This document shows positions 31,608 through 50,090 of a stretch of 64,000 bases of DNA, one piece after another. The stretch's first letter is position 1. Each line of letters opens with the position of its first letter. The DNA is from Tautonia marina (GTDB taxonomy: Bacteria; Planctomycetota; Planctomycetia; Isosphaerales; Isosphaeraceae): positions 186,001-250,000 of the forward strand of contig NZ_WEZF01000005.1 in NCBI RefSeq assembly GCF_009177065.1, in the 5' to 3' direction. The notes beneath the pieces are model-generated. The model was not told the origin of the DNA. It made no database searches and saw only the letters and a program-made list of their open reading frames with translations. A program made the translations under genes and the position numbers.

Positions 31608-31668
31608 TGGGCGATACAGGGCTCGAACCTGTGACCTCCAGTGTGTCGAACTGGCGCTCTAGCCAACT
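31608..31668 (-). repeat. attL: 61-bp fragment of tRNA-Val
   Basis: Identical to 50017-50077 in all 61 positions, covering the tRNA from the D-arm through the anticodon arm, T-arm and 3' acceptor strand to the discriminator base. The 5' acceptor strand (GGGCGATTAGCTC) is missing and replaced by element sequence, so this copy cannot give a functional tRNA. Confidence 0.95.
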
Positions 31669-33929: not shown

Positions 33930-36900
33930 TTACGCTGCCCAGTCCTTGCAAAGCGTCTCAGCCTGGGCGAGCACCGTCATCGTCGCCTGCTCCTGCTTGT
34001 CCGGCGGGTAGCCGTGCTTGCGGAGCAGGCGTTTGACGATCGTCCGCAACTTCGCCTTCACGCTCTCCTTCTCCGTCCAGTCGATCGAGACGTTCCGCCG
34101 GACCACGTCGGCCAGTTCTCGGGCGATCCCCCGAAGCGTCTCGTCCCCCATCACCTTGACGGCGCTGTCGTTAACCTCCAGGGCATCGTAGAACGCCAAT
34201 TCATCCTCGGTAAGCCCGAGAGACTCCCCCCGACGATGGGCGGCTCGCATCTCCTTGGCGAGTTCGATCAATTGAGCGATCACCTGGGCCGTCTCGATCG
34301 AGCGGTTCTGATAGCGCTGGATCGCCTCCTCCAGCATCCCGGCGAACGATCGGGCCTCGACCAGGTTCTTGCGCGACCGCGACTTGATCTCGTCGTTGAG
34401 CAGTTTGCGGAGCAGTTCCAGAGCGAGGTTCCGCTGGGGCAGGTCGCGAACCTCGGCCAGGAACTCGTCCGACAGGATCGAGATTTCGGGTCGCTTCATC
34501 CCGGCGTCGGTGAAGATGTCGATCACCCGGTCGGTCGTGATCGCCTTCGAGACCAATTGCCGGATCGCCGAGTCGACCTCGTGCTCCGACTTCCCCTCGG
34601 CCGGCGTGTACTTCACCAGCCCCGCCCGGACCGCCTGGAAGAACCCGACCTCATCACGGATCGTCAGGGCGTCATCGTGAGGCACGGCCAGGGCGAAGGC
34701 CCGGACCATCTTGGAGACCTCGTCCATGAAACGGGACTTGAGATTGTCCTCGGGGGACTGCTGGTCCCGCTCCAGGATGAAGTTCATCGCCCCCGAGACG
34801 ACCCCGAGACGACGCCCCGGATCGTCGCTGTGGATCGGCGAGAAGTCGAACCCGAATAGCATCGCCGAGACGACTTCGTGCTTCTCCAGCAGCAGCGCAA
34901 CGGCCTCCTCCTTGGGGATACCGGCCTGACGCCGATCCCCCTCGGTGTACGAAGCCAGGGCTTTCTTGAGCACGTGGGCAAGCCCGAGGTAGTCGACGAT
35001 CAAACCGCCGGGCTTGTCTCGGAAGACCCGGTTGACCCGAGCGATCGCTTGCATCAGGCCGTGCCCTTGCATCGGCTTGTCAGCGTACATCGTGTGCAGG
35101 CAGGGGGCGTCGAAGCCGGTCAGCCACATGTCGCGGACGATGACGAGCCTGAGCGGGTCGGCCGGCTCCTTGAATCGCTTGGCGATCGCTTCCCGACCCG
35201 ACTTGGTGCGGATGTGGGGCTGCCACGCTTGAGGGTCGGAGGCCGAGCCGGTCATCACGACCTTGATGGCCCCCTGGGAGTCGTCGTCGCTGTGCCAGTC
35301 AGGGCGGAGCTTGACGATCTCGTCATAGAGGTCGACGCAGATACGCCGACTCATCGCGACGATCATCCCTTTGCCCTCCAAGGCAGCCGTCCGTTGCTCG
35401 AAGTGGTCAACGATGTCTTGGGCGACCAGTTCGACCCGCTTCTCCGCCCCCACCATCGCTTCCAGCCGCGCCCACTTCGATTTCAGCTTCTCCTTCTTCT
35501 CGACTTCCTGACCCTCGGTGACTTCCTCGAACTCGTCATCGAGCTTGGGTTTCTCGCCCTCGTTGAGCGCGATCTGTGCCAGTCGCCCCTCGTAGTAGAT
35601 TCGGACCGTCGCTCCATCCTCGACCGATCGCGTGATGTCGTACACATCGATGTAGTCGCCGAAGACAGCCTGGGTGTTCTTGTCCGTCGCCTCGATCGGC
35701 GTGCCGGTGAACCCGATGAACGATGCGTTGGGCAGGGCGTCGCGCATGTGGCGGGCGAAGCCGTCGATAAAGTCGTACTGGCTGCGGTGGGCTTCGTCGG
35801 CAATGACGACGATATTGCGGCGGTCGGAGACGAGAGGGTACTTGGCCCCCTTGGTCTCGGGCAGAAACTTCTGGATCGTCGTGAAGACCACCCCACCCGA
35901 CGCGACCTTGAGCATCTCGGCGACCTGATCGCGCCGCTCAACCTGCACCGGAGCCTGTCTCAACAACGATTGGCAGTTCGAGAAGGTGCCGAAGAGTTGA
36001 TCGTCCAGGTCGTTGCGGTCGGTCAAGACCACGAGCGTCGGGTTCGCCATCGCCGGGTCTTTGACGATCTTGCCCGCGTAGAAGGCCATCGTCAGACTCT
36101 TGCCGCTGCCCTGCGTGTGCCAGATCACCCCGACCCGCTTGTCCCCCTCCGGCGAAGCTGCCCCGACGGTGCAGGCGACCGCCTTGTTGACCGCGTGAAA
36201 CTGGTGGTAGCCGGCCAGTTTCTTGACGACCGACACGCCATCGGACTCGAAGACGACGAAGTTCTGGACGAGGTTCAGGAACCGCCCCTTGTCGAAGACC
36301 CCCTTCACCAAGACTTCGAGTTCGGGCGTCCCCTTCGGCGCCACATCGTCCCCCTCGACCGTCCGCCAGGGCATGAACCGTTCGAAGTCGGCTGTCAGCG
36401 ACCCGATCCGGGCCTGGAGCCCATCAGAAACGACCAAAACCTCGTTGCGTGCGAAGAGGCTGGGAACGTCGAGCTTGTAGGTCTGGAGCTGATTAAACGC
36501 CCCCCGAACAGTCGCGTTCTCGTCGCCTGCGTTCTTCAACTCGATGACGGCCAAAGGCAATCCATTGACGAACACGACCATGTCGGCTCGACGTTTGCGC
36601 CGATCCTCGACGACGGTGAACTGATTGACGACAAGCCAGTCGTTTCGCTCATGGTGAGTGAAGTCGACGAGCCAGACCTTGTCCCCCGCGATCGAGCCGT
36701 CCGGCCGTCGGTACTCAACATCGACCCCTTCGGTCAGCATCCGGTGGAACCGGCGGTTGTTCTCAACCAGGCTCGGCGTCTCGGTCCGAAGCACCTTCCG
36801 CGCCGCCTCGTCGATGGCCGTGGCGGGGATGCCCGGATTGATCCTGGCGAGGCTCGCGCGGAACCTCCCCTCCAGCACCACGTCGGCATAAGAGTCCCGC

Positions 36901-37016
36901 TCCGCGCCCGGCTCGCCCGGCGCCAGGTCGGGGCCATGCGCGACCTCGTAACCCATGCCTTCAAACCAGGACAGGGCAGCGTCCTCGACGACGGACTCGG
37001 AGATACCAGGGCTCAT
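33930..37016 (-). CDS. hsdR: Type I restriction enzyme, R subunit (HsdR)
   Basis: A 1028-aa ATP-dependent translocase/endonuclease subunit. The N-terminal nuclease region has [20 protein letters not shown] (D...ExK, about residues 135-165). The motor has [15 protein letters not shown] (Walker A, about 305), [30 protein letters not shown] (DEAH-type Walker B), GFTGTP and [27 protein letters not shown], then Q-type helicase motif [22 protein letters not shown]. The C-terminal region is helical and ends in a domain of the HsdR C-terminal kind. ATG at 37016 with GGAG 9 nt upstream is preferred over a GTG at 37025. It is the last gene of the leftward operon, 24-33 nt downstream of the DUF262 gene. 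Confidence 0.95.
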
Positions 37017-37049
37017 CGGCGTCACACTCCAGCGCGATCGGGAACCAAT

Positions 37050-39728
37050 CTACCCGGCGTCGGTCGCTCCCTCATCCATGTTCGCCCCCTCGCTTGCGTC
37101 ATTGACCATATCATCAGTCTCGGCGGTTTCCAGGTCTTCAGGGCTGATCGCCTTGATCCTCGGGACGAAGACCCGATGGAGGCACTCTAGCTTCTCCCGA
37201 AGCCACTGGTGCTGATCGGGCCATTCCTGACGGTTTGCCAGATCGACGCCCTCCCGCTTGATCCTGATCTTGCTGTGCCTCCGATCACCTTGGTCTTGCC
37301 ACTCCAGCGGTTCACCAATCTCGGCCTCGATTGCCTCGCGATCACGCGAGAGGATGGTGTAGTACGCCTGGGCCTGGTCATACCAGAAGGTCAATTCCAC
37401 CGCGATCGAGGCTTCGCGCCAGCCCAGGATGGTGGCCAGTTGGGTATGAGACCTCCCGGCTGCAAACTTGTACCACGGGTCAGGCTGCGGCTTCCTGGGC
37501 TTCACCGGCGAGGACGAGTTCGTGAGCAAATCTCGGAATGCGAACCAGTAGTCGAGTCGGAACTGCTCGGCATCGGAGACACCCTCCCCGTGATTCGCGA
37601 GCCGGTCAGCTTTCGGCGTTCGAGTGATGTGCGGGGCCAGAACTCGTCGAAACGTTTCCAGCGATCGCCGCATCCAGTCGTAGTACGACGGCCAGATCGT
37701 CTCGTCGGTCGGGTCAACGGGGTTGCGAAGGACGATCAAGGAGTCACCCCCCGGTCGGGCGGTCCAAATGAGCCGCGAGCCGATCTCCGCCTCAATGGCC
37801 TCCTGGTGCTGCCGGATCGCGTGGAACTGCTGCTCGGCCCGCTTGCCGTGAAAACATGCGCTGACGGCTAACCGTCGGTTCCTGAGATTCAAATAGGCGT
37901 AGAGGGGTTTCCCAACTCCCAATCGCCCGCACAGGTGCCTGTACCTCGGTCCGGGCTCGGCCGGGTCCAACTCGCTCCCCGACTCCTTGAGATGGTCACG
38001 GAAACCCGTCCAGAACCGGAGCCGCAGATCGAACCGCGACGGACCGATCCGAGCAGCCTCATCGCTGGCGCGCTCGACCGGGACCGCCGGGCCTGGCCAG
38101 ATGCGGCTCGCGTCCTCGGCCATCCATCGGGCACGTTGCTCAATCTCTGCTTCACCCCACGACTCGCTGTCGGCCACACGTCGGGTCAGGACGATGTTGC
38201 TGTTCTTGTATCCTTCTCGCTTGATCGCGAAGGGCTTGTTCAGCAACTCGGGGTTATACCCGGTCAGAGTCAGGTTCCCCGGCGTGTGCAGCCAGGTCGA
38301 GTGAATCCGGGCCGACTCGTCCCCGAGCGTCTCACGCCAGGCGTCGGTGAGGGTCTGGGGCATGATGTGCTCGACCTGGGCCTTCGACAAGACTACCGGC
38401 TCCTTGTGCCCCTGGGCACGCTCCAGGGCAACCAGAACGGCCTTCCGGTAACGACTGTGATACAGGTCGAACGTCACGAACGCGCGGACGAAACGCGGCG
38501 TGTCGGGGAACCCGCGCGACTCCAGGAATCGCCGCAAATCATCCACCGGCGATTCACCGATCGCTCCGGCGGCCTGCACGAACAGCCGGGCATAGCCGCG
38601 CGAGTTCTCCCCGCAGACGAGCCGACGCAGGATGAACCCGGAGAGCAGGCGAAGGCACTCGATCAACTCCTTCGGGCTCAACGCCCCGCGATCCCGGCGC
38701 TCATACAGGTTCAGCAACAGGGCGTCCGTCGTCGAGCTTTCCAACTGCCGGAACTGGGCGAGCACCGCCTCGACCTCCGGGTCGGAATCGGGCCGGTTGC
38801 CTAGCAGAATCTCGTACCAGCCCGACGCCTTCTTGGCCTCGATCGTCACCTGGACGGGGTCGAATGCCGTGGCCGAGTGCTTCCGCTGAAAGGCGTCGAA
38901 CGTCTCGGCGGGCCGGATATACTCGCCGTGCCGCATCAGGTGATCGCGCAGGAACGACGACAACCCCTCGGCGTCGAGAATCCCCTGTTGATCCTCGAAT
39001 CGCCGCTCCATCGGCTTCCAGTGGGCTTGGTCGAATGCGTCCTGATGCTCGACCGGCAGGTTCATGAACACGAAATTGCGGATCAAATCCGCCGGGCCGA
39101 GCGGAACGCCCGTCGAGTTCAAGCTCTTGAAGATGTTGAACGGGTTCTCCCCCTCAAGCTGAGCGTAGACGAACTCCAGGCGCTGGCTCAGGAGGTCGTA
39201 GAAGGCCCGCAGACCGGCCTCCGTACCCGCCTCGGGGATTGTGGTCAACCGGCCTGCGAAATACCGCACGGCGGCCCCCAGACGGCCGTCGGCGGGCGTC
39301 TCGCCGTTGATGCAGGCGACATACTGCTCACGGTCCCGAAGCTTCGGGAAGACCCGGAAGCGATCCTCCCCCGTCTCGAACTGGTGAACAAGAGTCGAGA
39401 ACTCGATCTTCATCGCCAGATCGTCGAACCCAGCCAACCTTGCCGCGTCTCTCAGGGCGCACAAAATCAGCGAGAGCGTCGTCAAGCGTTGCTGCCCGTC
39501 GATCAGATGCGATCGGTTGATCCGCCCCGGCATGAACGTCTCGGGCACCATCACGAGGAACCCCATGAAGTGCCGGCCCGTCCGATCCGGTTCCTGCAAG
39601 TCCACCAGGTCATTCCAGAGCTTGTCCCACTGCGGCTGGTCCCATCGGTAGTAGCGCTGAAAGACCGGGATAACGTACTGGCACGGAGAGGCCAGCACCT
39701 CGCCCAGGGTCAGGTTGTTCGACTTCAT
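37050..39728 (-). CDS. GmrSD-like DUF262-DUF1524 nuclease fused to two DUF4268-like domains
   Basis: An 892-aa protein. Residues about 1-230 form a DUF262 (GmrS-like, ParB-related) domain with PVFQRYYRWDQ and the IDGQQRLTTL motif. The DUF1524 (GmrD-like His-Me finger) domain holds VEHIMPQT near residue 453 and TPGNLTLTGYNPEL, retaining the His and Asn expected of the nuclease. Beyond residue 560 are two tandem related domains (about 566-700 and 722-865), each beginning FW/F-x-FRDxL and carrying A-x-F/L-x-HxxxxxxF-like and REAIEAEIG...L-W motifs; these resemble DUF4268. GmrSD enzymes cleave modified phage DNA. Lying inside a type I restriction operon, this fusion could add a second restriction activity. 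Confidence 0.82.
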   Translation of the reverse strand: MKSNNLTLGEVLASPCQYVIPVFQRYYRWDQPQWDKLWNDLVDLQEPDRTGRHFMGFLVMVPETFMPGRINRSHLIDGQQRLTTLSLILCALRDAARLAGFDDLAMKIEFSTLVHQFETGEDRFRVFPKLRDREQYVACINGETPADGRLGAAVRYFAGRLTTIPEAGTEAGLRAFYDLLSQRLEFVYAQLEGENPFNIFKSLNSTGVPLGPADLIRNFVFMNLPVEHQDAFDQAHWKPMERRFEDQQGILDAEGLSSFLRDHLMRHGEYIRPAETFDAFQRKHSATAFDPVQVTIEAKKASGWYEILLGNRPDSDPEVEAVLAQFRQLESSTTDALLLNLYERRDRGALSPKELIECLRLLSGFILRRLVCGENSRGYARLFVQAAGAIGESPVDDLRRFLESRGFPDTPRFVRAFVTFDLYHSRYRKAVLVALERAQGHKEPVVLSKAQVEHIMPQTLTDAWRETLGDESARIHSTWLHTPGNLTLTGYNPELLNKPFAIKREGYKNSNIVLTRRVADSESWGEAEIEQRARWMAEDASRIWPGPAVPVERASDEAARIGPSRFDLRLRFWTGFRDHLKESGSELDPAEPGPRYRHLCGRLGVGKPLYAYLNLRNRRLAVSACFHGKRAEQQFHAIRQHQEAIEAEIGSRLIWTARPGGDSLIVLRNPVDPTDETIWPSYYDWMRRSLETFRRVLAPHITRTPKADRLANHGEGVSDAEQFRLDYWFAFRDLLTNSSSPVKPRKPQPDPWYKFAAGRSHTQLATILGWREASIAVELTFWYDQAQAYYTILSRDREAIEAEIGEPLEWQDQGDRRHSKIRIKREGVDLANRQEWPDQHQWLREKLECLHRVFVPRIKAISPEDLETAETDDMVNDASEGANMDEGATDAG

Positions 39729-39939
39729 CGACAGACCTCGTCATGCTCCCAGAGGACGCTGCGCCCGAACCTCCGGGTCGGAATGGGAGCAATCCTCAGA
39801 TCACTCCTTCCCTACGAGCAAAGGCGGAGGCACGGCGGCACCGGCAACGCTCCGGTTCCCCCTCCGCATCGGGGAGCCCGTCCCCCGATCATCGCAATCC
39901 GGCCAGGCGGCCGGGGCGACACCGAACACCGCGTCCCAC

Positions 39940-41166
39940 TCAAGACGACGACGCCCGCAAGGGCGTAAACCCCGTGACTTCCACGATCCGGTGGGCTCGA
40001 TCGCCCATCATCAGGATGCCGTGGAGCGCAACGTACTCACCGGCCAGATGGGCTTCCCCGGCCTTCTGGTAATCGTCGGCGTCCAGGGTCACTCGGGCAC
40101 GAATCTTCTCCTTTTCCTCCTGATTCAGGATCAACAGTTGCACATCTCCGCTCACACGCCCCGACTCCTCCCGGTCGCCGTGCAGGGAATCGACCAGGCC
40201 GACGAGGAACGACTTCTTCGGGGTATGGGTCGGCCGCAGCTTGACGGCTAACTTCGCGATGGCAGGGAAGTACTCCCGGCGCAGGTGGACCGCCGACGGC
40301 GGGGTCGCGGTCCGGGGCGGGGGTAAGGTGCGAGCCCAGGTTGCCAGCACCGACACCTGCGAACGGTCCCCCTCCGGCTCCATCATCATCAGCGCGTCGC
40401 AAAGGTTCGCGCTCAGGCTTGGTTGTCCCGCCGCCGGTTCAACAAGGCTGTCCTCCTGGTCGCCGTCGATGGCCGATGCGATCCGTGCCAGCGACCGCAT
40501 CAACAAGCCGGTGGTCTGACGCGCAAACGGCTCGGGTCCGGCGGCATCGGGGGTCTCGACGGACGGGCCGGAATCGGTGCCCTGCTGACCTTCGAGCATC
40601 GCCAGCAGCGGGCGATCCCCCGCCGACTCCGGGCCGGCGGCGTCGAGCGGGCAGGCGACGACGGCCGTGAAGCTGCCCCGCTCCGTCTGGCCCAGTCGGC
40701 AGGCCCGCACCAGTTGCTCCGCCTCTCCCCGGCTCAAACGCGGGTAGAATTTCTGGGGCTGCACCACGGCACACGCAGCCGACAGGATCGCCTTCCTCGC
40801 GCCGTCCAGGAGTTCGATCCCCTGATTCAGGCTCACATCCCCCTTTTGCGTCCCCGGCCCGATCATCCGGAACCGGAGCACATCCGAGGGCGGCAGCAGC
40901 AGGTCGTCCAGGATGTCGCTGGCGGGGCGCCCCTCGTGCTCGGCAAGGGTGGAAATGACCTCGGCCATCCGCCGGGCATAGTCGGCCAGACCCGCGTCGA
41001 GCGGGATGAGCAACTGGTCCAACTCCGAGGTCGGATGGTCAAACACCGCCACCTTGCCATTCACGCCAGTCACGCGCTTCCAGCCCGAGGCCGCCACGTA
41101 GTGTCGCGCCTCGACGGGGTTAATGCGGGAAACCAGGTGCTCGGGGAGGTCAAACGGGTTGCTCAT
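39940..41166 (-). CDS. Unknown protein of the restriction operon (pairs with the DUF4365 gene)
   Basis: A 408-aa protein without a recognised family. N-terminal residues 1-90 (EARHYVAASGWKRVTGVNGKVAVFDHP, PLDAGLADYARRMAEVISTLAEHEG as spans) look like a small alpha/beta domain, and the next part has RFRMIGPGTQKGDVSLNQGIELLDGARKAILSAA and LVRACRLGQTERGSFTAVVACPL. A Gly/Ala/Pro linker is near 210-225. The C-terminal third has strands with VKLRPTHTPKKSFLVGLVDSL and RARVTLDADDYQKAGEAHLAGEYVALHGIL. Its ATG overlaps the end of the DUF4365 gene by 17 nt, so the two are translated together. A defence-associated role is inferred only from position. Confidence 0.75.
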   Translation of the reverse strand: MSNPFDLPEHLVSRINPVEARHYVAASGWKRVTGVNGKVAVFDHPTSELDQLLIPLDAGLADYARRMAEVISTLAEHEGRPASDILDDLLLPPSDVLRFRMIGPGTQKGDVSLNQGIELLDGARKAILSAACAVVQPQKFYPRLSRGEAEQLVRACRLGQTERGSFTAVVACPLDAAGPESAGDRPLLAMLEGQQGTDSGPSVETPDAAGPEPFARQTTGLLMRSLARIASAIDGDQEDSLVEPAAGQPSLSANLCDALMMMEPEGDRSQVSVLATWARTLPPPRTATPPSAVHLRREYFPAIAKLAVKLRPTHTPKKSFLVGLVDSLHGDREESGRVSGDVQLLILNQEEKEKIRARVTLDADDYQKAGEAHLAGEYVALHGILMMGDRAHRIVEVTGFTPLRASSS

Positions 41167-41692
41167 AGTCGATCCTCTCGCCGCGCGAAACCCGTGTCAG
41201 GACTGATCGCAGGCCCGCGACGGAGAAGAGGTTGCTCGAAGGAAGATAGACCGTTTGCGACGACTTGTTCGGGCTGTCCGGGGCGGCTTGCAGGCTGACC
41301 CAGTAGGCGCACCGCTGGGCGATCATGCGTTCCGCCGAGTGAACCAGCCACTGCTCGGGGTCGGGCGGGAGATACAGCACCACGAGGAATTGCTGGGCCT
41401 GACGGTCCGTGTCGCGAAGCTTGTTGTAGTGGTCCAGTCGCAGGGGAAAGGGATAGCATCCCCGATCGTCAAGGTTTGGCTCGCCGCTGGTCGCCTTCAA
41501 CTGAACGTCGATGCTGAAGTGCGTGAAGACCGAGTCCGGAGCAAACCGCTCCCTGGCCCGGATCGTCGCATCCACGCCGGCCCCGTCGCTATACCGCTCC
41601 GCCTTCTGAACCTCGCACCCGGCCCGCGAGGCGACCGCGTGCAGGTAAGCATAGCTAAGTTCCGACTTGATGTCGTTCTCGGTGAGCAACAT
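41150..41692 (-). CDS. DUF4365-like protein (possible PD-(D/E)xK-type nuclease-like)
   Basis: A 180-aa protein. It starts MLLTENDIKSELSYAYLHAVASRAGCEV, contains DGAGVDATI and FSIDVQLKAT near residues 45-75 (an acidic residue followed by Q-x-K, a degenerate PD-(D/E)xK-like core), then FPLRLDHYNKLR and a central strand QFLVVLYLPPDPEQWLVHS. This pattern matches DUF4365 proteins found in defence and mobile loci. ATG at 41692 is preferred to an upstream start at 41773 that has no similarity. The 3' end overlaps the 408-aa gene by 17 nt. Confidence 0.75.
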   Translation of the reverse strand: MLLTENDIKSELSYAYLHAVASRAGCEVQKAERYSDGAGVDATIRARERFAPDSVFTHFSIDVQLKATSGEPNLDDRGCYPFPLRLDHYNKLRDTDRQAQQFLVVLYLPPDPEQWLVHSAERMIAQRCAYWVSLQAAPDSPNKSSQTVYLPSSNLFSVAGLRSVLTRVSRGERIDYEQPV

Positions 41693-41762
41693 CGAGCGAC
41701 CTGCCCCCCAGGGTCTTCTTCCGGCAACCGGCCAACCATTCACGATTGTACGATGGCACCGC

Positions 41763-43022
41763 TCACTGAACAACCGTGCTCATTTCCTCGATCCGAACTT
41801 CGCCGGAGAGCAGCTTCGGCAAGAGGGTGTCGCGCAGAGCGGCGAGCGTTGCCGCCTCCTCGTCGTGTGTCTTTTGATTCGCCCAGCAGGGCGTCAGAAC
41901 CTCGACGAAGCGGCGTTGAAGCTCAACGGGTGGCTCGATCACCGGCAAGCTGTAGAAGTCGTCGCGGCTTGTCGAAGGGATCGCGGAGCCGCTATCCATC
42001 CCGTTGATGTCGAGCCGAAGCATTTCGTAATAAGCCCAGCGCAACTCGATCTGGGACTTCGGCTCGACGTAGTAGGCGGTGTCGATGACGAAGAACGGGG
42101 CATCGTGGTAGTGAACCCCGCGATACGCGCCCTTGCGGCCGATGATGATACCTGGGTGACTGCAAAGCGGCTCGACGTGCCGACCGATCGGTCCGTTGGT
42201 GCCAAAGACAGTAAAGGGGCCGTCGCTGTCTTCGTAACTGCGCAGACTCTTACCATATTCGAGCCTCACCAGATCGCCCCATCGTCGCGTATGCCAGCCC
42301 TCCGGGATCGGGCCGAGGGGGGAGTCGGCGAACGAGGAGGGGAACAGGGCGGCGGTCTCGGCGTCGAGGCCGGGCGGCTGGCGCCCCTCACTCTTGGCCC
42401 GCACGGGGTCGAAGTCCACGAACCACGACCGGAACACCGCCCGCGCCATCCCCTCCAGCGTCCCGTTCATCCTCCGGTTCAGGTCGATCTTGTCGTCGAG
42501 GGCACCGAGGATGGCCGCGATTTCCCGTTGCTGGTCAATGGGGGGAAGGGTGATGTGGAGGCGTTTCTGATCGACCAGGCTCAAGTACGGGGCCATGTCG
42601 GTCGAGGTTTTCATGCTCGAAAGCTGGCCTTCGAACTCGCGGCCTCGTGACCAATACCGGAGGAAGCCGGGCCAGAGTCGGTCCAGGTCGAGCGAGCGCC
42701 AAAAGCTCAGGTGTGGTGAGTAGACGAACCTCGGCATCCGATCGTCAACGTATGTCACCCGGCCCGTGCTATTCCCCTTCGTCGTGACGACAACATCCCC
42801 CGGCTTCGACATCTTGGGAAGGACGCGGTCGGTCAACTCCGCACGAAAACGATCAACCCCGTCGAAATGGATGTGCGAATCGGTCACATGCCCCGCACGA
42901 AGGAAGATTGGCCCGTCGCCCCCGAGTTCGGAGTTCTTGGCACGGTAGCCATCGCTGATCTGCAAAACTCCTTCGCCGATCAGGTCGCCGAAGGTTGACT
43001 CGGTCCAGAGGTCAGGCATCAT
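41763..43022 (-). CDS. hsdS: Type I restriction enzyme, specificity subunit (HsdS)
   Basis: A 419-aa subunit that determines the bipartite recognition sequence. Two target recognition domains are arranged in tandem: TRD1 (about 1-150), followed by the conserved helix PPIDQQREIAAILGALDDKIDLNRRMNGTLEGMARAVF, and TRD2 (about 210-355) with WGDLVRLEYGKSLRS, followed by the second conserved helix (IEPPVELQRRFVEVL ... NQKTHDEEAATLAALRDTLLPKLLSGEV). Both central repeats and the C-terminal LLPKLLSGEVRI motif are intact. It is separated from hsdM by about 1.2 kb of small genes, which is unusual for hsdMS pairs. Confidence 0.95.
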   Translation of the reverse strand: MMPDLWTESTFGDLIGEGVLQISDGYRAKNSELGGDGPIFLRAGHVTDSHIHFDGVDRFRAELTDRVLPKMSKPGDVVVTTKGNSTGRVTYVDDRMPRFVYSPHLSFWRSLDLDRLWPGFLRYWSRGREFEGQLSSMKTSTDMAPYLSLVDQKRLHITLPPIDQQREIAAILGALDDKIDLNRRMNGTLEGMARAVFRSWFVDFDPVRAKSEGRQPPGLDAETAALFPSSFADSPLGPIPEGWHTRRWGDLVRLEYGKSLRSYEDSDGPFTVFGTNGPIGRHVEPLCSHPGIIIGRKGAYRGVHYHDAPFFVIDTAYYVEPKSQIELRWAYYEMLRLDINGMDSGSAIPSTSRDDFYSLPVIEPPVELQRRFVEVLTPCWANQKTHDEEAATLAALRDTLLPKLLSGEVRIEEMSTVVQ

Positions 43023-43071
43023 TACCGATGGCTCGCATGTTCACCCAAATGTGCCCGTCCAGCCGCTCTCT

Positions 43072-43341
43072 TCAGGCGGCGTGTAACGGTGCCAGTTCCG
43101 ACGCGGCAAGCTCCGGCTGGTCGAGTTGCCGCAGCACCGCGTTGACGCAATCGACGGACACCGCCCCCGGATCGACGAGTTCCAGGCCGATCGGCCGACC
43201 ATCCTCGGCGCGGTCAATCACGATCAGATCGTCGATCGGCTCGCTCCGTACGGCGCGGTCCCCCGGCCTCCGAGGCAGGTACAGGTAGGCCGCGATGGGC
43301 TTTCCCAGGCGGAAGGTCACTTCAAGGTATGGCTGGTTCAT
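43072..43341 (-). CDS. DUF2283-like small protein, copy A
   Basis: An 89-aa protein with RSEPIDDLIVIDRAEDGRPIGLELVDP, the characteristic DUF2283 pattern of a small antitoxin-like beta fold. It is nearly identical to copy B (43703-43972), with substitutions at about eight positions. Its ATG overlaps the stop of a truncated DUF4258 remnant (TCATGA). It lies directly upstream of hsdS in the operon. Confidence 0.8.
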   Translation of the reverse strand: MNQPYLEVTFRLGKPIAAYLYLPRRPGDRAVRSEPIDDLIVIDRAEDGRPIGLELVDPGAVSVDCVNAVLRQLDQPELAASELAPLHAA

Positions 43342-43433
43342 GACGACCCCCTGGCATCAGCCGTGATCACGAGCAACCGGAGGCTCGACTCACCCCGCTC
43401 GACAATGACTCGGCCTTCGGCTTCAACAGTTTC
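43338..43433 (-). pseudogene. Truncated DUF4258 remnant
   Basis: In the minus frame the last 31 codons before 43338 read EAEGRVIVERGESSLRLLV and then ITADARGSS-stop, matching the end of the intact DUF4258 gene (ASEGR ... [17 protein letters not shown]). A TGA lies just upstream and no start codon is in frame. It is the degraded copy of the upstream partner left by the duplication. Confidence 0.7.
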
Positions 43434-43449
43434 TCATCTCCACCTCGCG

Positions 43450-43680
43450 TCAGCTCGCCGCCGCGAATCGCCGCACATCGACCTGGGCACCTGCCTGATG
43501 GAGCGCCTCGGCAATCTCCAGCAATCGAGCGGATTCGGCCTCGCCGATGTAGGCTTCGCCACAGTTCGGGCAGACGGCGGCGGGCACGTCCTTGATGACC
43601 AGGGTCGAGCCGTCCCGTTCCAGGGTCACGGTGGTCGAGCCGGGCTCGGTCTCGGCCCGCTTGCAGATGGCACAGATCAT
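43450..43680 (-). CDS. YgiT-type zinc finger protein (MqsA-like antitoxin)
   Basis: A 76-aa protein with two CxxC knuckles (MICAICKRAE and AVCPNCGEAY) and ERDGSTLVIKDVPA between them, the pattern of the YgiT/MqsA N-terminal zinc domain. ATG at 43680 is used. YgiT-type proteins are commonly encoded beside DUF4258 proteins as toxin-antitoxin pairs; here the intact DUF4258 gene lies upstream with one DUF2283 gene between them, and a truncated DUF4258 lies downstream. Confidence 0.85.
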   Translation of the reverse strand: MICAICKRAETEPGSTTVTLERDGSTLVIKDVPAAVCPNCGEAYIGEAESARLLEIAEALHQAGAQVDVRRFAAAS

Positions 43681-43702
43681 CGCGTCCTCGGTGAGCCTCT
43701 TC

Positions 43703-43972
43703 TCAGGCGGCGTGCAACGGTGCCAGTTCCGACGCGGCAAGCTCCGGCTGGTCAAGTTGCCTCAGCACCGCGTTAACCCGATCGGCCGACACCGCAACCG
43801 GATCGACGAGTTCCAGGCCGATCGGCCGACCATCCTCGGCGCGGTCAATCACGATCAGATCGTCGACCGGCTCGCTCCGTACGGCTCGGTCCCCCGGCCT
43901 CCGAGGCAGGTACAGGTAGGCCGCGATGGGCTTTCCCCGGCGGAAGGTCACTTCGAGGTACGGCTGGTTCAT
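43703..43972 (-). CDS. DUF2283-like small protein, copy B
   Basis: An 89-aa paralogue of copy A with RSEPVDDLIVIDRAEDGRPIGLELVDP. The ATG overlaps the stop of the intact DUF4258 gene by 4 nt, so they are translationally coupled and probably act as a pair. The near identity to copy A shows recent duplication. Confidence 0.8.
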   Translation of the reverse strand: MNQPYLEVTFRRGKPIAAYLYLPRRPGDRAVRSEPVDDLIVIDRAEDGRPIGLELVDPVAVSADRVNAVLRQLDQPELAASELAPLHAA

Positions 43973-44241
43973 GACGACCCCCTGGCATACGCCGTGATCA
44001 CGAGCAACTGGCGGCTCGTCTCGTCTGGTTCAACGACGATGTCCCAGTCGCGCCCATCGTATCGTGCCATGATAACAAACCGTCCTTCCGACGCGGACGG
44101 CCGGTAGCCCGATGCGGAGGCGAGCATCGCACGCAAATCGACCTCGTTGAATCCCCGATCGACCATGCGCTTGAGCAGGTGGGGCGTGAATTCGAGTTCC
44201 CACTCCCACCAGTCCGGCCAGTCGAGGGGATCAGGCACCAT
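43969..44241 (-). CDS. DUF4258 family protein (putative toxin)
   Basis: A 90-aa protein: [28 protein letters not shown] followed by [33 protein letters not shown]. This is the DUF4258 pattern (HALxRMxxRG ... W-x-V-x-VEPD ... LxVVTxY), a family linked to toxin-antitoxin modules. The start at 44241 ([12 protein letters not shown]) overlaps the end of hsdM by 11 nt. It is an insertion between hsdM and hsdS. Confidence 0.82.
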
Positions 44242-45823
44242 AGCCAAGCCTTTCCAGGTTCGTCGTGATGGCGGCATCGAGCCGCGCCGCCTCGGCCTGC
44301 TGCTCCCGGAGCGTCGCCACCAGCCGCCCCATCTTCTCCTCGAACGGCTCGCCGTCGTCCTCCACGTCCTCGGCCCCGACGTACCGCCCCGGCGTCAGCA
44401 CGAACCCATGCGCGGCGATCTCTTCCTGCGTCGCCGCCTTGCAGAAGCCCGGCACGTCGGCATAGGGGCCGGCATCTGGCTCGCCGCGCCAGGCGTGGTA
44501 GGCGCGGGCGATCCGGGCGATCTCGTCGTCCGAGAGTTCACGGTGGGTCCGATCAACCAGGCTCCCCAGCTTGCGGGCGTCGATGAACAGCGTCTCGCCC
44601 CGGCGATCACGGAACCGCCCGTTCGCCTTGTTCCGGGTCAGGAACCAGAGACAGGCTGGGATCGGCGTGGTATAGAACAATTGCCCCGGAAGGGCGATCA
44701 GGCAGTCGACCAGGTCGGCCTCGACGATCCGGCGCCTGATCTCCCCCTCGCCTGACTGGTTCGACGACATCGACCCATTCGCCAATACAAAGCCCGCCAC
44801 CCCCTTCGGCCCCAGGTGCGCAAGGAAGTTTTGCACCCAGGCGAAATTCGCGTTCCCGACCGGCGGCGTCCCGTACTGCCATCGCGCATCTTCGCGGAGC
44901 CGGTCGCCCCCCCAGTCGCTCACGTTGAACGGCGGGTTCGCCAGGATGAAGTCGGCCTTCAGGTCTTTGTGCTGGTCGTTGTGGAGGCTGTCGGCGTGGT
45001 GCGGCCCGAGATTCGCCTCGATCCCCCGGATCGCCAGGTTCATCTTGCAGAGCTTCCAGGTCGTCGGGTTCGACTCCTGCCCGTAGATCGACAGGTCGGT
45101 CTTCTTCCCCCCGTGCGCCTCGACGAATTTCTCCGACTGCACGAACATCCCGCCTGACCCGCAGCAGGGGTCAAACACCCGCCCCTTGTACGGCTCGATC
45201 ATCTCGACCAGCAGCTTCACCACCGACTCGGGCGTGAAGAACTCCCCGCCCAGCTTCCCCTCGGCGGCGGCGAACTTCCCGAGGAAGTACATGTAGACCT
45301 GTCCCAGCAGGTCTTTCGACCGATGATCACGCTTGCCGTCGAACAAATCAGCATCTTCGCGGTAGACCAGTTCGATCGTCCCGATCAGGTCGATCAACTC
45401 GCCCAGCCGGGTCTGATCGAGCGTCGGCCGTGCGTAGTCCTTCGGCAAGACCCCCTTGAGTGACCCGTTCTCCTTCTCGATCGCCTCCATCGCGTTATCA
45501 ACGCGCTTGCCGATGTCCGCCTGTTTCGCGGCGTCCTGGAGCGCCTGCCAGCGTGCCACCTTCGGCACCCAGAAGACATTCTCGGCCAGGTACTCGTCCC
45601 GGTCTTCCGGGTCGGCGTGCGGCTCGTCCTGGAGCGCGTCGTACCGCTCCTGGAAGGCGTCGCTGATGTACTTCAGGAAGATCAGGCCCAGCGCGACGTG
45701 CTTGTACTCCGCCGCGTCCATGTGGCCCCGCATCTTGTCGGCCGCCGCCCAGAGCTTCTCCTCGAACCCCAGGTTCGCCCCGCCCCCGTTCTTCTTCCCC
45801 GTCCCCGCTTTCGGCCGCCCCAT
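44231..45823 (-). CDS. hsdM: Type I restriction enzyme, methyltransferase subunit (HsdM)
   Basis: A 530-aa N6-adenine methyltransferase subunit. An HsdM N-terminal helical domain ([37 protein letters not shown]) is followed by the catalytic domain with the SAM site [13 protein letters not shown] (motif I, about residue 220) and the catalytic [13 protein letters not shown] (motif IV, NPPF). [18 protein letters not shown] is also characteristic. It is the first gene of the leftward operon, with about 800 bp of apparently non-coding sequence upstream. Confidence 0.96.
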
Positions 45824-46628
45824 CGCGCTCCACCCTCCACCTCAAGCCCTCGGTCGTCGTGCCCCATTATGCGTGCCAACATGCGGGGTGTCGACGACCC
45901 CCTCCCATGCTCGCTCCTCTCCCTCCCCATCCCCCCTCCGCCCGATCCCGCAACGCCCCAGAGACCGGGACTCTCCACTCACGGTGAGTGAACGAACCCA
46001 TCCATCCTGAAGCATATCACCAAGGGGCTTCAAAAACTCCGCGAGCGGTGGGTTACGCCCACGATGGCTCGCTCGGGGGGGACCACGCCCCTCTTCCCGC
46101 AAGTCGTCACCCCTCAAGACCTTGGGCCTCTCACACACGAACCTCTGACTGGAAACTCACCCCTCTTGAGAATCAATTCCCATCAATCCACTCTCTCTCG
46201 CTCGCCTTCACCTCAACGACCCGACCGTTCCTTGACCTGGCTTCGCGCCCGTCTGAATCTCCCTCACCCTGGCCCGATCCCGCTCCCTCGGCCTCCTGAC
46301 CGAGGTGAGAACCGCGCGGTTCTCACCCTCCTCCGAGGGGTCGAGTTGGGGCGCGTCCGTCTCGTCAACGACCGTTCCTTCCCCTGGTCGCCCCCCAATC
46401 AATCCGATACGCCCTGGCTCGGGTTCTTCCTCGTCGGAGGACACGCTCCCCTTGCTCGGCGCCTCGTGACTGTCCTCCATCTCACACCCAGAAACCAACA
46501 TCAACGAAATTTTTTCGAGATTCTTTGCCACCCCGAAATCGTGTTTTACGGTCGAGTGTCCTCGGTCGGTTCGCCAGCCGATTGAGTCCCCCAACCCTGA
46601 GATACCCCTTTGAAATTCGAGCCCAATC
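45824..46628. other. Gene-free stretch between hsdM and the HTH gene
   Basis: About 800 bp between divergent hsdM (-) and the HTH gene (+). Frames here give only low-complexity Arg/Pro/Ser-rich products that do not look like proteins. The region should hold both promoters. One clear element is a perfect palindrome at 46305-46326. Confidence 0.6.
46305..46326. promoter_or_regulatory. Perfect 22-bp palindrome (candidate operator)
   Basis: Two 11-nt arms, GTGAGAACCGC and its exact complement, meet without spacer at 46315/46316. It lies in the divergent region between the restriction operon and the HTH/polymerase-like genes and may be the binding site of a dimeric regulator. Confidence 0.5.
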
Positions 46629-46913
46629 ATGACCCCGAACACCCCCGACCCGAACATCCTCCCGATCCCTGAACCCGCGCCTCCCTCCAGGGGGCTCCTC
46701 ATCGACATCGCCGAGCTTTCGACCCTGCTCGATCGTTCGGTCCGCTCGCTTCACCGCGACGACCTCGCCGGCCGCATTCCTGCCAGCCTTCGCCTCGGCC
46801 GCTCGAAGAAATGGTCCCGCGCCGAGATCGAGGCATGGATCAACGCCGGCACACCTCCCAGACGCAAGTGGGAAATCATCAAGAAGTCGCCCCCTTCCCG
46901 CCAGGCCGGCTGA
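46629..46913 (+). CDS. Helix-turn-helix protein (AlpA/excisionase-like)
   Basis: A 94-aa protein with LLIDIAELSTLLDRSVRSLHRDDLAGRIPASLRLGRSKKWSRAEIEAWI (about residues 23-71, span), the MerR-like winged HTH pattern of AlpA regulators and excisionases. The start follows a rather weak RBS. In an element with a tyrosine integrase, such a protein usually directs excision or regulates integrase or replication genes. Confidence 0.85.
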   Translation: MTPNTPDPNILPIPEPAPPSRGLLIDIAELSTLLDRSVRSLHRDDLAGRIPASLRLGRSKKWSRAEIEAWINAGTPPRRKWEIIKKSPPSRQAG

Positions 46914-47358
46914 CCGACCATCGCCCCTGAAGGGCTTCAACGGCCCGGCTCGGCCCCTCGGAGCCCGATCGTTCCCTCGCACCGGCGGGCCATCCTCCCG
47001 GCCCCTCCGCCCAGGTCAAGGATCGGCCTCTCCCTCTGGATCGCACCCCGACCACCACCCCGCCGCCATCGGACCGACGGAGTCCCTGAGACTCCCGCAT
47101 CGGTGACGGCCCAGTCCTCCCTGGGGATCGTCTCCCCAGCGGTCACGTCACCCCTGCGCGCCGACCTCGATCCCTTCCCAGTGGGCCGAGCGTTCGGCCC
47201 CGCGCGCCTCCCCGTCTCGCGGGAGTCGCATCACTGCCTCGCGATTGTCGCAAACGACCATCCGATCGAACCCATTCACCCCAACCCCGCCCCACTGTCG
47301 ATGCCGGGCAAGCAACGTCGCTGGCCCGGCAGGTCAACCCCCATCTCAGAGATCACCC
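46914..47358. other. Gene-free stretch between the HTH and polymerase-like genes
   Basis: About 445 bp with several frames open by chance but no protein-like product. It may contain the promoter of the polymerase-like gene, or a replication origin if that gene encodes an initiator; no iterons are evident by eye. Confidence 0.4.
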
Positions 47359-48651
47359 ATGAGCCTCGCATTCGAATTCGAACACACACCGCTCCAGGAT
47401 GTCACCTCGGAGCGTGAGCCAATCGCCCTCTGGAACCCCTGCGATTTCGACCCGACCGACTTCCTGACGGTTTCTGACCGCCGTCTCGGCGACTGTGCCC
47501 GCTACATCCTGCACCTGGTCCACTACCGGGGGATATTCGACGTGCGCCTGCGAGGCACGTTCGTCCCCCTGAAGGCCAAATACCTCCGCCGCTTCTTCCC
47601 CGACAACACATCCTACACGCGAGTCCGTGACCAGCTCATCGAGAGCAAGGTGCTCCTCTTCGACAATCACTACGAGGTTGGGAAAAAGTCCAAGGGCTTC
47701 AAGCTCGGCCCGGCGTTCTCCGCGATGCGACAGCGGAAGGTCGCCATCGCCGATCCCACCCTCTCGCGTAAGATACTGGCCAAGCGGCGAGACTGGTGCC
47801 ACGCTCCCTCAGACGTTCATCGGCATCTGCTGGCATACTTGCGCAGGATCGAGATCGACTTCCCGGCCGCGCTTGCCTGGTTGCTCGGCCACTCGGAGTT
47901 CGAGCCGGCCCACGAGACCTCGATCAGCATGCTCCACGATCGAGACCTGTTCTTCCACGTCGACTCCTATGGCCGCGTCCACACCAATCTGACGAACCTT
48001 AAGACCGAGTTGCGCGGCTTCCTCTCCTACCAGGGGCAGCCGCTCGTCAACCTCGACATCAGGAACTCCCAGCCCCTCCTCTTCTCGATCCTGCTCCAGC
48101 AGCACTACCGGGGGACCGGAGGGCTCCCCCCGGATGTCGCGCGGTACATCGACCTGGTCCAGGACGGACAATTCTATAATTTTCTGATGGATGCGACCGG
48201 CATCCCCCCCGAGCAACGCTCCGACTTCAAGCGAAAATTCTTCGGGAATACGTTCTACTGCGAGAACTGGCGTCGGACCGATGCGGCCCGCGCGTTCGAT
48301 GCCCGGTTCCCAAACGTGTACCGCGTCGTCCGGGCGCTCAAGGAGGGCGACCATACCCGGCTCCCGAAATGCCTCCAGGGGGTCGAGTCCGACCTGATCA
48401 TCGGCGGCGTCGCCCGACGCTGCATGGAGCAGTTGCCGAACGCCTTCATCGGCACCATCCACGACTCGATCCTCACGACCCCCGATCACGCCGAGGCGGT
48501 TCAGGAGATCATGACTCAGGAGTTCTCCCGCCTCGCCCTGGCCCCGACGATCAACATCGAGCGACTCAACCGGCCAGCACCCCGGACACTTGTACGAGAC
48601 CTACACCGTAATGGTCTTCCCTCCGTGCCTGCCCCTGGTGCTGGTTGGTAA
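47359..48651 (+). CDS. Winged-helix-like plus family A DNA polymerase-like palm protein (putative element replication protein)
   Basis: A 430-aa protein. Residues about 40-115 look like a winged-helix domain (CARYILHLVHYRGIF, YTRVRDQLIESKVLLFDNHYEV). The C-terminal half carries in order the three motifs of family A DNA polymerases: motif A LVNLDIRNSQPLLFSILL (Asp near 233; compare DYSQIELR), motif B RSDFKRKFFGNTFY near 287-300 (RxxxKxxxFG as in the PolA O-helix), and motif C GTIHDSILT near 366-373 (compare VHDE). Both metal-binding Asp positions are kept. There is no 3'-5' or 5' exonuclease domain, and it is half the size of Pol I. ATG at 47359 is preferred to 47245 because the upstream extension is low complexity. 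A role in copying the element is inferred. Confidence 0.75.
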   Translation: MSLAFEFEHTPLQDVTSEREPIALWNPCDFDPTDFLTVSDRRLGDCARYILHLVHYRGIFDVRLRGTFVPLKAKYLRRFFPDNTSYTRVRDQLIESKVLLFDNHYEVGKKSKGFKLGPAFSAMRQRKVAIADPTLSRKILAKRRDWCHAPSDVHRHLLAYLRRIEIDFPAALAWLLGHSEFEPAHETSISMLHDRDLFFHVDSYGRVHTNLTNLKTELRGFLSYQGQPLVNLDIRNSQPLLFSILLQQHYRGTGGLPPDVARYIDLVQDGQFYNFLMDATGIPPEQRSDFKRKFFGNTFYCENWRRTDAARAFDARFPNVYRVVRALKEGDHTRLPKCLQGVESDLIIGGVARRCMEQLPNAFIGTIHDSILTTPDHAEAVQEIMTQEFSRLALAPTINIERLNRPAPRTLVRDLHRNGLPSVPAPGAGW

Positions 48652-49891
48652 TGGTGGTTTTTGTCCGTCTGGCAATCCCTGGCAGCTCCAATTTTGAATT
48701 TACGAGTGCTTGAACGATGTTGCGAGTCTTCTCCGACCTCGCACGGCGAGATCAAGCCTTGGGAGCTTGCCGGGGATTCGACGACACCCGGCTCACCGTT
48801 TCGCAATGTCCCTGGCGGCTCGTGACGCGCCGTCAGGTGACATCCACATCCAGGGCAGGAACTCCGCGCCGACCTGATCTTGTCCGGCAAGCCGATGATC
48901 AGTCAGTCGCGGCGTTCGCCTCGAAGGACGAACCCTCCATCATCGCAATGATCCGCTTCTTGCACTCGCGGCGCCGAGTCGTCCTGGATCACCGCCCCCA
49001 GCGGCCCAGGAACCCATTTCGCAGGGGATCAGCCCGAGTCACCACCCCGATAGCCACAGGATGATCCTGGCTCCCCTCGACCGGAACTCGACCTCGTCTC
49101 ATCGGGAGTCGGCCAGGCCGACCAGTCACCTCCCCTCCCACACGCCATGTCATCCCGGTCGGGGACTCTCCCCAAACACCAGCCTCGCTGCGGGGCCTTC
49201 TCAGCGGCCTCCGCCTCCCTCCCATCCCATCGCCCCTCGCCTGCGGGGTACTCACGATCGCGCAGGCCACCCAGGGCGCCACCGCAGCAGCGCTGCCGAG
49301 CAAACATCCCGCTCGCCCGCCCGTGACCATACGAGCGATGGAGACCGCCTCACAGGCGGCCGGTCGATCGCGATATGGACCAGACAAGCGCGTGCCGGCT
49401 CACCCGATGCCCGTGACACCCTCTCTTCCGCCCCAGCGCGTGCCCGGTCCACCTCCCTGGCGACTGCCCCAGTCCGAGGCATTGCCCCATCCCGAGCCCT
49501 GTGATCCGAGCCCGAGCGAGGAACGCTGCCCGAGATCGGTGCGCTCCATCAGGTAGGGATGAGCACCCACGAAGCGGCGAATGAGATCACCCCCCTCCGA
49601 CATCGTCGGTCAAACACGCACCGAGCATCCTTCCCGCCCAGGGCGCGAGCCGATCATCGGCAACAGGATCGACCACTCGGCCTCAATGCGAAATGATCAG
49701 CCCAGGACACACCCACGCATGGACGCGTGCGGAAACATGTCAGAGGGAAGACGTGCCTAGTCTCGCTGCCCGCTCGTTGCAGGATGGGCCAGGTGATTCC
49801 GGGCACGATGACACGTTGTCCAAGCGGTCGCTCTCAGTGAGCAGTCCGGTCGTGGACGTGTCCGGCAAGCTGACGAACCCGAGATGATGAC

Positions 49892-49933
49892 AAAAAACAA
49901 CACGGCCCCGCTGGTGAACACCACCGGGGCCGG
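49892..49933 (-). terminator. Rho-independent terminator downstream of tRNA-Val, within the element
   Basis: On the minus strand a GC-rich stem-loop (49903-49933, loop around 49916-49920) is followed by a T-rich tail (A-rich 49892-49899 on the plus strand). It lies about 84 nt beyond the 3' end of the intact tRNA-Val and would terminate its transcript after integration. Confidence 0.75.
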
Positions 49934-49971
49934 TCATGTAAGAATTGACCTATGAGTCAGCCGAAACAGAT

Positions 49972-49992
49972 GGGCAGCCATAGGGGCAGCCA
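49972..49992. repeat. Paired GGGCAGCCA repeats next to attR
   Basis: GGGCAGCCA at 49972-49980 and GGGGCAGCCA at 49983-49992, 25-45 bp inside the right attachment site, match a copy near the left end at 31826-31835. Confidence 0.4.
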
Positions 49993-50016
49993 GGTGATCG
50001 GCTTGACGTAAGTCTA

Positions 50017-50090
50017 TGGGCGATACAGGGCTCGAACCTGTGACCTCCAGTGTGTCGAACTGGCGCTCTAGCCAACTGAGCTAATCGCCC
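50017..50090 (-). tRNA. tRNA-Val (anticodon GAC)
   Basis: An intact cloverleaf on the minus strand: 7-bp acceptor stem GGGCGAT/ATCGCCC with discriminator A, D-arm GCTC...GAGC, anticodon stem CCAGT/ACTGG with loop TCGACAC (anticodon GAC), T-arm ACAGG-TTCGAGC-CCTGT. No CCA is encoded. Its 3' 61 nt (50017-50077) are the right attachment repeat of the integrative element; the gene stays functional after integration. Confidence 0.96.

Follow-up and report, generated by a model that had tools for sequence, protein, structure and literature searches.

The 64-kb window analyzed here, a stretch of 64,000 nucleotides of contig NZ_WEZF01000005.1 of the planctomycete Tautonia marina, holds an 18.4-kb integrative element in a tRNA-Val gene, and this element encodes a compact polymerase of 430 amino acids. 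According to its structure model, the protein belongs by fold to the superfamily of family A DNA polymerases (PolA), and judged from its alignments it is one of a real protein family and not a chance resemblance. On balance, we lean towards reading it as a primase-polymerase that would bind the origin and initiate replication once the element is excised. Relatives are encoded in other integrative elements and in huge phages; one enzyme links small integrative elements with very large phages. The gene and the parts of its product are located as follows (window coordinates):

47359..48651, + strand: TV-Pol-like winged-helix / family A polymerase gene (open reading frame (ORF), full-length homologues, AF2 model, Foldseek and VIA matches to PolA)
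47410..47763, + strand: predicted winged-helix N-terminal domain, residues 18-135 (separate model, VIA rows)
47974..47976, + strand: R206, beta-hairpin arginine preceding the palm (Arg in 76/77 rows)
48052..48075, + strand: motif A LDIRNSQP, residues 232-239, with catalytic D233 and Q238 (48070-48072), each in 77/77
48217..48258, + strand: motif B RSDFKRKFFGNTFY, residues 287-300, fingers helix (K291 in 77/77, Arg or Lys at 287 in 75/77; hhalign to Pol I motif B)
48454..48468, + strand: motif C TIHDS, residues 366-370, with catalytic D369 (77/77; aligned to the Pol I HDE motif)

The polymerase core and its family

The ORF starts with ATG at 47359 and stops with TAA at 48649-48651, and its locus is the single match in the host genome. 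A first-pass annotation of the window had read motifs A, B and C with both catalytic Asp residues in this ORF and had noted that an exonuclease domain is absent. This observation is confirmed. Both D233 and D369 are invariant in alignment A4, which comprises 77 proteins (82 clustered representatives from which L092, L175, L078, L161, L176 and L177 were taken out and to which the window protein was added). Seven columns are invariant in total (D233, Q238, Y273, K291, P318, E343 and D369), R206 and H368 are each kept in 76/77 and S370 in 74/77, and residue 287 of motif B is Arg in 51/77 and Lys in 24/77. No weight is placed on F299/Y300 at the end of motif B because the window row of A4 may be shifted there by one column. 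Neither Pfam nor NCBIfam has a family that matches the window protein at E ≤ 5, and accordingly an exonuclease domain is not recognized. This also holds for Pfam DNA_pol_A (PF00476), a match to which is diagnostic of the classical family A branch and not a definition of the superfamily. PHROG returned a single weak match (E 0.064) and a PDB sequence search only unrelated ones (E 1.3 with the window protein; 0.23 and 1.3 with a 12-row profile).

Members come from huge phages, Planctomycetota and Bacteroidota, and one each was found in Verrucomicrobiota and Fibrobacterota. By tblastn, members occur in 6 of 50,697 phage records, all of them uncultured phages of 595-735 kb, and in 1 of 72,556 plasmids. 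Six of the 45 genomes of the host's order carry a member, as do 4 of 392 genomes drawn from the phylum when scanned with the 12-row profile (own genome included in both counts), and 37 of 397 genomes drawn from the family of Seonamhaeicola (centre genome included). In viral contigs, a phage query brought up 47 loci; alignment A2 brought up 181, and 80 of these were retained. Genome contigs yielded 27, mostly from Planctomycetota and Bacteroidota, with one from Verrucomicrobiia and one from Fibrobacteres. Neither the window protein, run against genome and viral contigs, nor a Hymenobacter protein, run against viral contigs, confirmed a relative; a closer alignment did. PHROG 4756, which has no function assigned, matches 9/77 members (best E 5.9e-7), and NCBIfam gives 13 scattered single matches over the 77 members; a bifunctional exonuclease/DNA polymerase is among the families hit (E 0.047). 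The reading frame of one member (L164/L184) is split over several frames. In a tree from a quick search, flagged for long branches and skewed composition, the window protein falls in a set of 21 rows, 14 bacterial and 7 from phages (SH-aLRT 96), which places integrative elements and phages on the branch of the window protein. As separate observations, two or more family copies lie at separate places in the genomes of L165 (G453), L167 (G446), L166 (G445), L176 (G452) and L159 (G455), and the verrucomicrobial member (L153, 9005-11293) has an open frame of 763 amino acids with an N-terminus far longer than that of the rest.

The AF2 model of the window protein, built from A4, is confident (mean pLDDT 90.6, pTM 0.87). 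Motif A is predicted as a strand (230-234) followed by a helix (237-249), motif B lies within a helix (284-300) and motif C forms the turn joining strands 365-367 and 370-373. A strand-helix motif A, a helical motif B and a motif C in a turn are the arrangement of the PolA palm and O-helix. Against the PDB, 16 chains passed E ≤ 0.001 in Foldseek, every one a family A DNA polymerase, with single-subunit RNA polymerases (POLRMT, T7 RNA polymerase) further down the list at weaker scores. Among the VIA matches listed, 50/50 rows are family A DNA polymerases (Z 12.6-14.2), led by Pol theta (Z 14.2, root-mean-square deviation (rmsd) 2.7, 245 residues aligned) and followed by Bst Pol I, the apicoplast polymerase and T7 DNA polymerase. 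The best match among viral structure models, A0A8D9FR19, comes from an uncultured marine phage and is named 'Putative DNA polymerase I' (E 1.7e-23, TM 0.70/0.74; 27% identity to the window protein over 397 columns); by this model comparison it is probably a member of the same TV-Pol-like family. A barbavirus polymerase follows at rank 6 (E 2.3e-7, TM 0.29) and a virophage helicase/primase/polymerase at rank 45 (E 1.6e-3).

Profile comparison points, weakly, the same way. Hhalign against 25 planctomycete Pol I segments gave E 0.0094, which is weak by itself; the score of 29.1 exceeds those of 40/40 column-shuffled Pol I profiles (maximum 22.8) and of one reversed profile (13.4). The alignment pairs motif B, the Q of a Q..ES stretch and the HD of motif C with their Pol I counterparts, and motif A falls outside the aligned stretch; a global hhalign run against Pol I gave no useful alignment. 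Values against T7 RNA polymerase were insignificant (E 0.36 and 0.3), compared with 0.025 and 0.017 for T7 DNA polymerase. A chance resemblance to PolA was considered and rejected on the basis of the 77-row alignment, the structure model and the fold search.

The N-terminal head and the ribose-gate position

Residues 18-135, modeled separately from 66 sequences, gave a pLDDT of 91.9 and a predicted winged helix. With this domain, Foldseek retrieved nothing at E ≤ 0.001. VIA ranked 4pql first (Z 7.5, rmsd 3.7, 92 residues aligned) and 5kbj sixth (Z 6.7), both of the RepA_N family, like the second-ranked 4pt7 (Z 7.1); by VIA's own caution, Z values below 8 are middling and may reflect only a common arrangement. 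The entries 4PT7 and 4PTA are described as RepA proteins of Staphylococcus aureus plasmids from the RepA_N family (PMC7145576). PHROG 270, 'replication initiation protein', matches 1/77 members (E 3.1e-4). The predicted winged-helix head on a TV-Pol-like polymerase is new here.

A second peculiarity lies in motif A. Q238 stands five residues after the motif A Asp (D+5), the position of the ribose gate, and is Gln in 77/77 family members; the corresponding alignment column in planctomycete Pol I holds Glu in 25/25. The gap-free match of D+5 is supported by the model, with its strand at 230-234 and its helix starting at 237. In Escherichia coli Pol I the D+5 residue is E710, reported to discriminate against ribonucleotides, and the gate residue of CCPol is likewise given as Glu, E174 (both PMC7581432). 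As read from the alignment, the invariant Gln at the gate position is new here and differs from the Glu of Pol I.

Integrative elements and huge phages

The element of Tautonia marina is bounded by a 61-bp direct repeat with 61/61 bases identical, and it is laid out as follows (features without a strand are sites or regions):

31608..31668: attL, 61-bp repeat of the tRNA-Val 3' end (exact repeat)
31874..33145, + strand: tyrosine integrase near attL (Pfam Phage_integrase, E 6.4e-19)
33930..45823, − strand: restriction cargo (Pfam: HsdR, GmrSD, DUF4365, HsdS, MqsA-like antitoxin, DUF4258, HsdM; also a family-less protein of 408 amino acids)
46304..46327: perfect palindrome of 24 bp, a candidate site for an operator or initiator; it separates hsdM from the HTH_17 gene
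46629..46913, + strand: HTH_17 protein, probable excisionase or regulator (Pfam HTH_17 5e-05, under its cut-off; PHROG 66, 4.4e-06)
47302..47331: imperfect 30-bp palindrome directly upstream of the polymerase start (15-nt arms, 87% complementary)
48652..50016: candidate origin region of about 1.36 kb without recognized gene, from polymerase to attR (its small ORFs not scanned)
50017..50077: attR, identical 61 bp within tRNA-Val, forming its 3' end (exact repeat)
50017..50090, − strand: tRNA-Val (GAC), integration target

PHROG 66 stands for excisionase and transcriptional regulator. HsdR, HsdS and HsdM make up a type I restriction set, and besides the restriction cargo families two proteins of the element have no family in the Pfam scan. 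The 24-bp palindrome is the sole perfect one of at least 18 bp found in the window (1 match versus 0/100 shuffles). Apart from the polymerase, no recognized replication gene is present among the 12 element proteins scanned with Pfam.

Integrase, often an HTH_17 protein, and polymerase recur together in tRNA-targeted elements. In a Pfam scan of 123 neighbor proteins (of 162 listed), at least 12 Phage_integrase, at least seven HTH_17 and at least three Resolvase matches were counted among the best 25 of 96 families. Over 33 bacterial loci, integrases account for 13 of the 175 genes within three positions of the polymerase versus 1 of the 393 further off, and 12/33 loci have one within three genes; the integrase profile was seeded with the window integrase and five neighbors and favors these. 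Two loci were left out of this count, L152 (integrase downstream) and L154 (none), since the gene caller had missed their polymerase gene. The order integrase, HTH_17-type gene and polymerase on the same strand is found in L160, L163, L166 and L169 (Pfam-checked in L160 and L163). tRNA genes are present in 16 of 30 loci scanned; all 16 were searched for repeated tRNA sequence (L158 with two of its eight tRNAs), and in five an exact repeat encloses the polymerase:

L159: tRNA-Phe, 99 bp
L167: tRNA-Met, 23 bp
L175: tRNA-Lys, 20 bp
L181: tRNA-Glu, 47 bp
L187: tRNA-Leu, 62 bp

An integrase lies inside or at the edge of the element in 5/5. The element of L187 measures only 6.3 kb and encodes an integrase, a PDZ-like protein (below the cut-off), a MotA/ExbB-type protein and the polymerase, besides three further ORFs of 82-105 amino acids, one of which was scanned and gave no match. 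In the tRNA-Phe element of L159, a gene for an RNase H homologue (11383-11793; E 1.3e-4 to 4h8k) overlaps the end of the polymerase gene, and no other gene of the compared neighbor set matches this homologue. A small, similar-looking ORF of 65-80 amino acids was also seen to overlap the polymerase end in L156 (11314-11553), L182 (10759-10998, same contig) and L181 (8751-8945), that is, in two planctomycete genomes; a WEGVG.YL stretch is common to them by eye and the product is a possible partner.

In six phage loci (L002 and L072-L076; the scores of L072 and L074 are identical), the TV-Pol-like gene is adjoined by a further polymerase gene of about 430 codons. Its product is of the PF00476 type where scanned, with coordinates 9071-10354 in L002 and 11173-12459 in L072, and its gate residue is Glu by eye. 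The two genes overlap by ATGA in 5/6 loci and lie about 270 bases apart in L076. This adjacent second PolA gene in the phages nearest to the window protein is new here, and the pairs hint, on thin grounds, at a division of labor between a primer and an extender. Another polymerase family was matched in 13/13 phage records examined: PolB in 11, often partially, and PolIII alpha in two, L002 and L072, both of the branch of the window protein. The plasmid with a family member matches neither PolB nor PolIII alpha. With another polymerase family matched in 13/13 phage records, a job shared by phages and elements is likelier to be starting or specialized synthesis than bulk replication, and the TV-Pol-like enzyme is probably an extra polymerase in the phages. 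Two observations on these phages stand apart. PolB matches number two to four per phage in records W02-W05, G436, G437, G440 and G442; some are pieces of one frame and others separate frames, mostly of about 370-580 amino acids, possibly split or multiple PolB genes. Furthermore, in 53 of 92 distinct phage loci the gene that follows the polymerase directly encodes an uncharacterized protein, whose cluster representative (L099, 10932-11624) has no Pfam match.

Relation to known systems and possible role

TV-Pols are minimal PolA-related polymerases, proteins of 400-600 amino acids found in transposons and viruses, which were predicted in 2008 to prime and polymerize; they reside in mobile elements with an integrase, from planctomycetes, bacteroidetes, verrucomicrobia and other groups, and some carry an extra N-terminal domain (Iyer, Abhiman & Aravind 2008, PMC2579912). 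The window family resembles them in its minimal domain, size, hairpin Arg, two Asp, RxxxK fingers (Arg replaced by Lys in 24/77 members) and lack of a nuclease, as well as in its mobile elements with integrase or resolvase, its phyla and its optional N-terminal domain. Helices 168-176 and 183-193 of the model precede the beta hairpin, where the TV-Pol thumb has two antiparallel helices. Differences exist too: the published N-terminal domain was predicted to be all-helical, whereas a winged helix is predicted here, and a D5-like helicase, the trait of one TV-Pol subset, is not among the 12 proteins of the window element, nor is D5 among the best 25 of 96 families listed for the 123 neighbor proteins of the relatives. 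Direct sequence comparison was made with gp030 of Ma-LMM01, taken as a likely TV-Pol from its transposase neighbors only. The A4 hidden Markov model (HMM) scores it at 0.8 bits (E 1.7), third among the ORFs of that phage, and with A1 it is absent from the six ORFs listed. By eye, gp030 and the family have an LQ..E stretch in common, and further on an HD. We use the label 'TV-Pol-like' because the tested core features agree and gp030 gives no significant match, and the window polymerase fits the group by its published description.

Much of the earlier interpretation stands, namely the family A fold with its palm and O-helix arrangement (confident model, all listed VIA rows PolA), the winged-helix N-terminus (separate model and fold search, with middling scores), the integrative element in a tRNA gene and its tyrosine integrase (exact 61-bp repeats, Pfam integrase) and homologues beside integrases in other elements, including five more with tRNA repeats. 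The initiator-polymerase role that it suggested is kept here as a proposal. Its statement that no named family has this layout falls, as TV-Pol was described with such a layout (PMC2579912).

Nearly all known primases are stated to belong to the DnaG or AEP families (PMC10061031), and the 2020 CCPol paper notes that, to its authors' knowledge, no other TV-Pol member had been characterized biochemically (PMC7581432). CCPol-MP, classed with the TV-Pols, is reported there to prime de novo: CCPol starts primers in complex with MP and from then on takes deoxynucleoside triphosphates only (PMC7581432). As in CCPol-MP and PolA-SSB, the window element combines a family A catalytic domain with a nearby site-specific recombinase (PMC7581432, PMC10061031). 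CCPol, as described, has a Glu gate, an OB-fold partner and a helicase, in contrast to the Gln, the predicted winged helix and the lack of a recognized partner of that kind here. By analogy, pipolins would be the closest functional parallel, with tRNA att repeats, a tyrosine recombinase, an excisionase, restriction genes and a polymerase of their own, which is a primer-independent family B enzyme there and a family A enzyme here (PMC7385651). To RepA_N initiators of plasmids and PLE (4PT7, 4PTA; PMC7145576), the likeness is the N-domain fold, best-ranked and tied with others. A difference is that no Pfam RepA_N match is among the families listed. To our knowledge, RepA_N proteins have no polymerase domain. 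Bacterial Pol I shares palm and fingers, motifs B and C and the arrangement of Q and HD; the window protein differs by the absence of 5' or 3' exonuclease, by Gln for Glu at D+5 and, in E. coli numbering, by a span from motif B to motif C that is shorter by about 45 residues. The divPolA2 of barbaviruses is likewise a small PolA of phages that lacks an exonuclease and has a globular domain at its N-terminus (PMC11348598). Its representative AUR84708 scores 4.7 bits with the 12-row A1 HMM (E 0.0067 in a set of 10 sequences), whereas the 77-row A4 HMM gives -7.0 bits; read by eye, its motif C is FDE instead of HDS. It was considered for the same family and is kept here as a distant structural neighbor. 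Among the literature titles listed on family A polymerases in mobile elements and huge phages, none concerns this subfamily, the papers on TV-Pol, PolA-SSB and phage polymerases apart.

The reading that we lean towards, that of an origin-binding primase-polymerase, would operate as follows. The integrase, helped by the HTH_17 protein, would excise the 18.4-kb element from tRNA-Val; the winged-helix head may bind a site on the excised circle and so recognize the origin; the palm and fingers domain would lay down the first nucleotides, as a primase or a primase-polymerase; and the host replicase, or the TV-Pol-like enzyme itself, would extend the primers. We infer catalysis, a primer-independent start, origin binding and replication of the element as a circle. 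The compact enzyme, its distinct predicted head, the fixed gate change and the exact element ends make priming and sugar use directly testable.

Several points weigh against this proposal. Activity data for the TV-Pol-like winged-helix family were not found. The RepA_N rows are tied with other winged helices (Z 7.5 versus 5.9-7.0), and because the ties lie within 1 Z and Z stays below 8, the RepA_N resemblance is a lead and not an identification; Pfam RepA_N is absent among the best 25 of 26 families listed for the 77 members, and the window protein has none. Integrase is missing within three genes in 21/33 bacterial loci, and 11 of the 16 tRNA-bearing loci yielded no tRNA repeat. An iteron array was not found in the window element (repeats at 48640-50020 are two- or three-copy and weak), and its 12 proteins scanned with Pfam include neither a replicative helicase nor a recognized priming partner, the latter being required for priming by CCPol in the form of MP (PMC7581432). 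Moreover, the Hymenobacter plasmid with a family member encodes an annotated replication initiation protein besides, and as proof of sole-replicon function it was rejected for that reason.

A more specific version appears possible but doubtful. It sees a one-chain origin-binding primase in which a RepA_N-like winged helix is joined to PolA and the Gln gate permits ribonucleotide starts, a PolA counterpart of pipolins in tRNA-integrated elements of Planctomycetota and Bacteroidota, shared with huge phages as a translationally coupled pair whose second PolA extends the primers. The Gln gate and the lone RNase H neighbor hint at RNA-containing primers, both being thin.

An unlikely alternative is a primer-dependent polymerase for gap filling or repair, which would finish DNA joints or mend element or phage DNA and have no role in replication start. 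The presence of Pol theta and Pol I among the best structural rows is in line with such a function, as are the phage carriers that also match another polymerase family, and the host primase could serve the excised element. Initiation is nevertheless the better fit for the 6.3-kb element of L187 and for the winged-helix head, and the conserved gate Gln is unlike the Glu of 25/25 Pol I.

The gate residue bears in turn on a T7-like use as a small single-subunit RNA polymerase or RNA primase, which would supply RNA as primers or in transcribing the element. At motif C the family shares HDS (Ser in 74/77) with T7-like RNA polymerases, and Gln instead of Glu at D+5 in 77/77 agrees with this use. Weak Pfam RNA_pol matches in 2/77 members (best E 0.019), PHROG 414 'RNA polymerase' in 2/77 (0.019), the RNase H gene overlapping the polymerase gene in L159 and the lower-ranked POLRMT and T7 RNA polymerase in the Foldseek list add to it. 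We nonetheless judge it improbable, as the 50/50 VIA rows listed are DNA polymerases and hhalign to T7 RNA polymerase is insignificant next to that to T7 DNA polymerase. A PF00940 scan over 14 records matched neither these nor its controls and carries no weight in this judgment.

A catalytically dead or regulatory palm protein, its fold serving DNA binding or incompatibility only, is conceivable in principle given regulatory use of polymerase folds, but nothing direct favors it and both Asp, the motif B Lys and the hairpin Arg are kept in 76-77 of 77 diverged proteins, which makes it most improbable. Equally little credence is given to a defense or counter-defense polymerase carried as cargo alongside the restriction genes: these are abundant in the window element, yet other members lie in elements with other cargo and in phages, and integrase and HTH_17 are the commonest neighbors among the families listed.

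As for the remainder of the element and its host, the restriction cargo contains a direct duplication of 300 bp (43066-43365 and 43697-43996, 94% identical), which carries two copies of an 89-amino-acid gene flanking the MqsA-like antitoxin gene. Besides its chromosomal Pol I, the host genome encodes a second, shorter PF00476 polymerase (L190, contig C1, 388361-388996) in an open frame of 597 amino acids.

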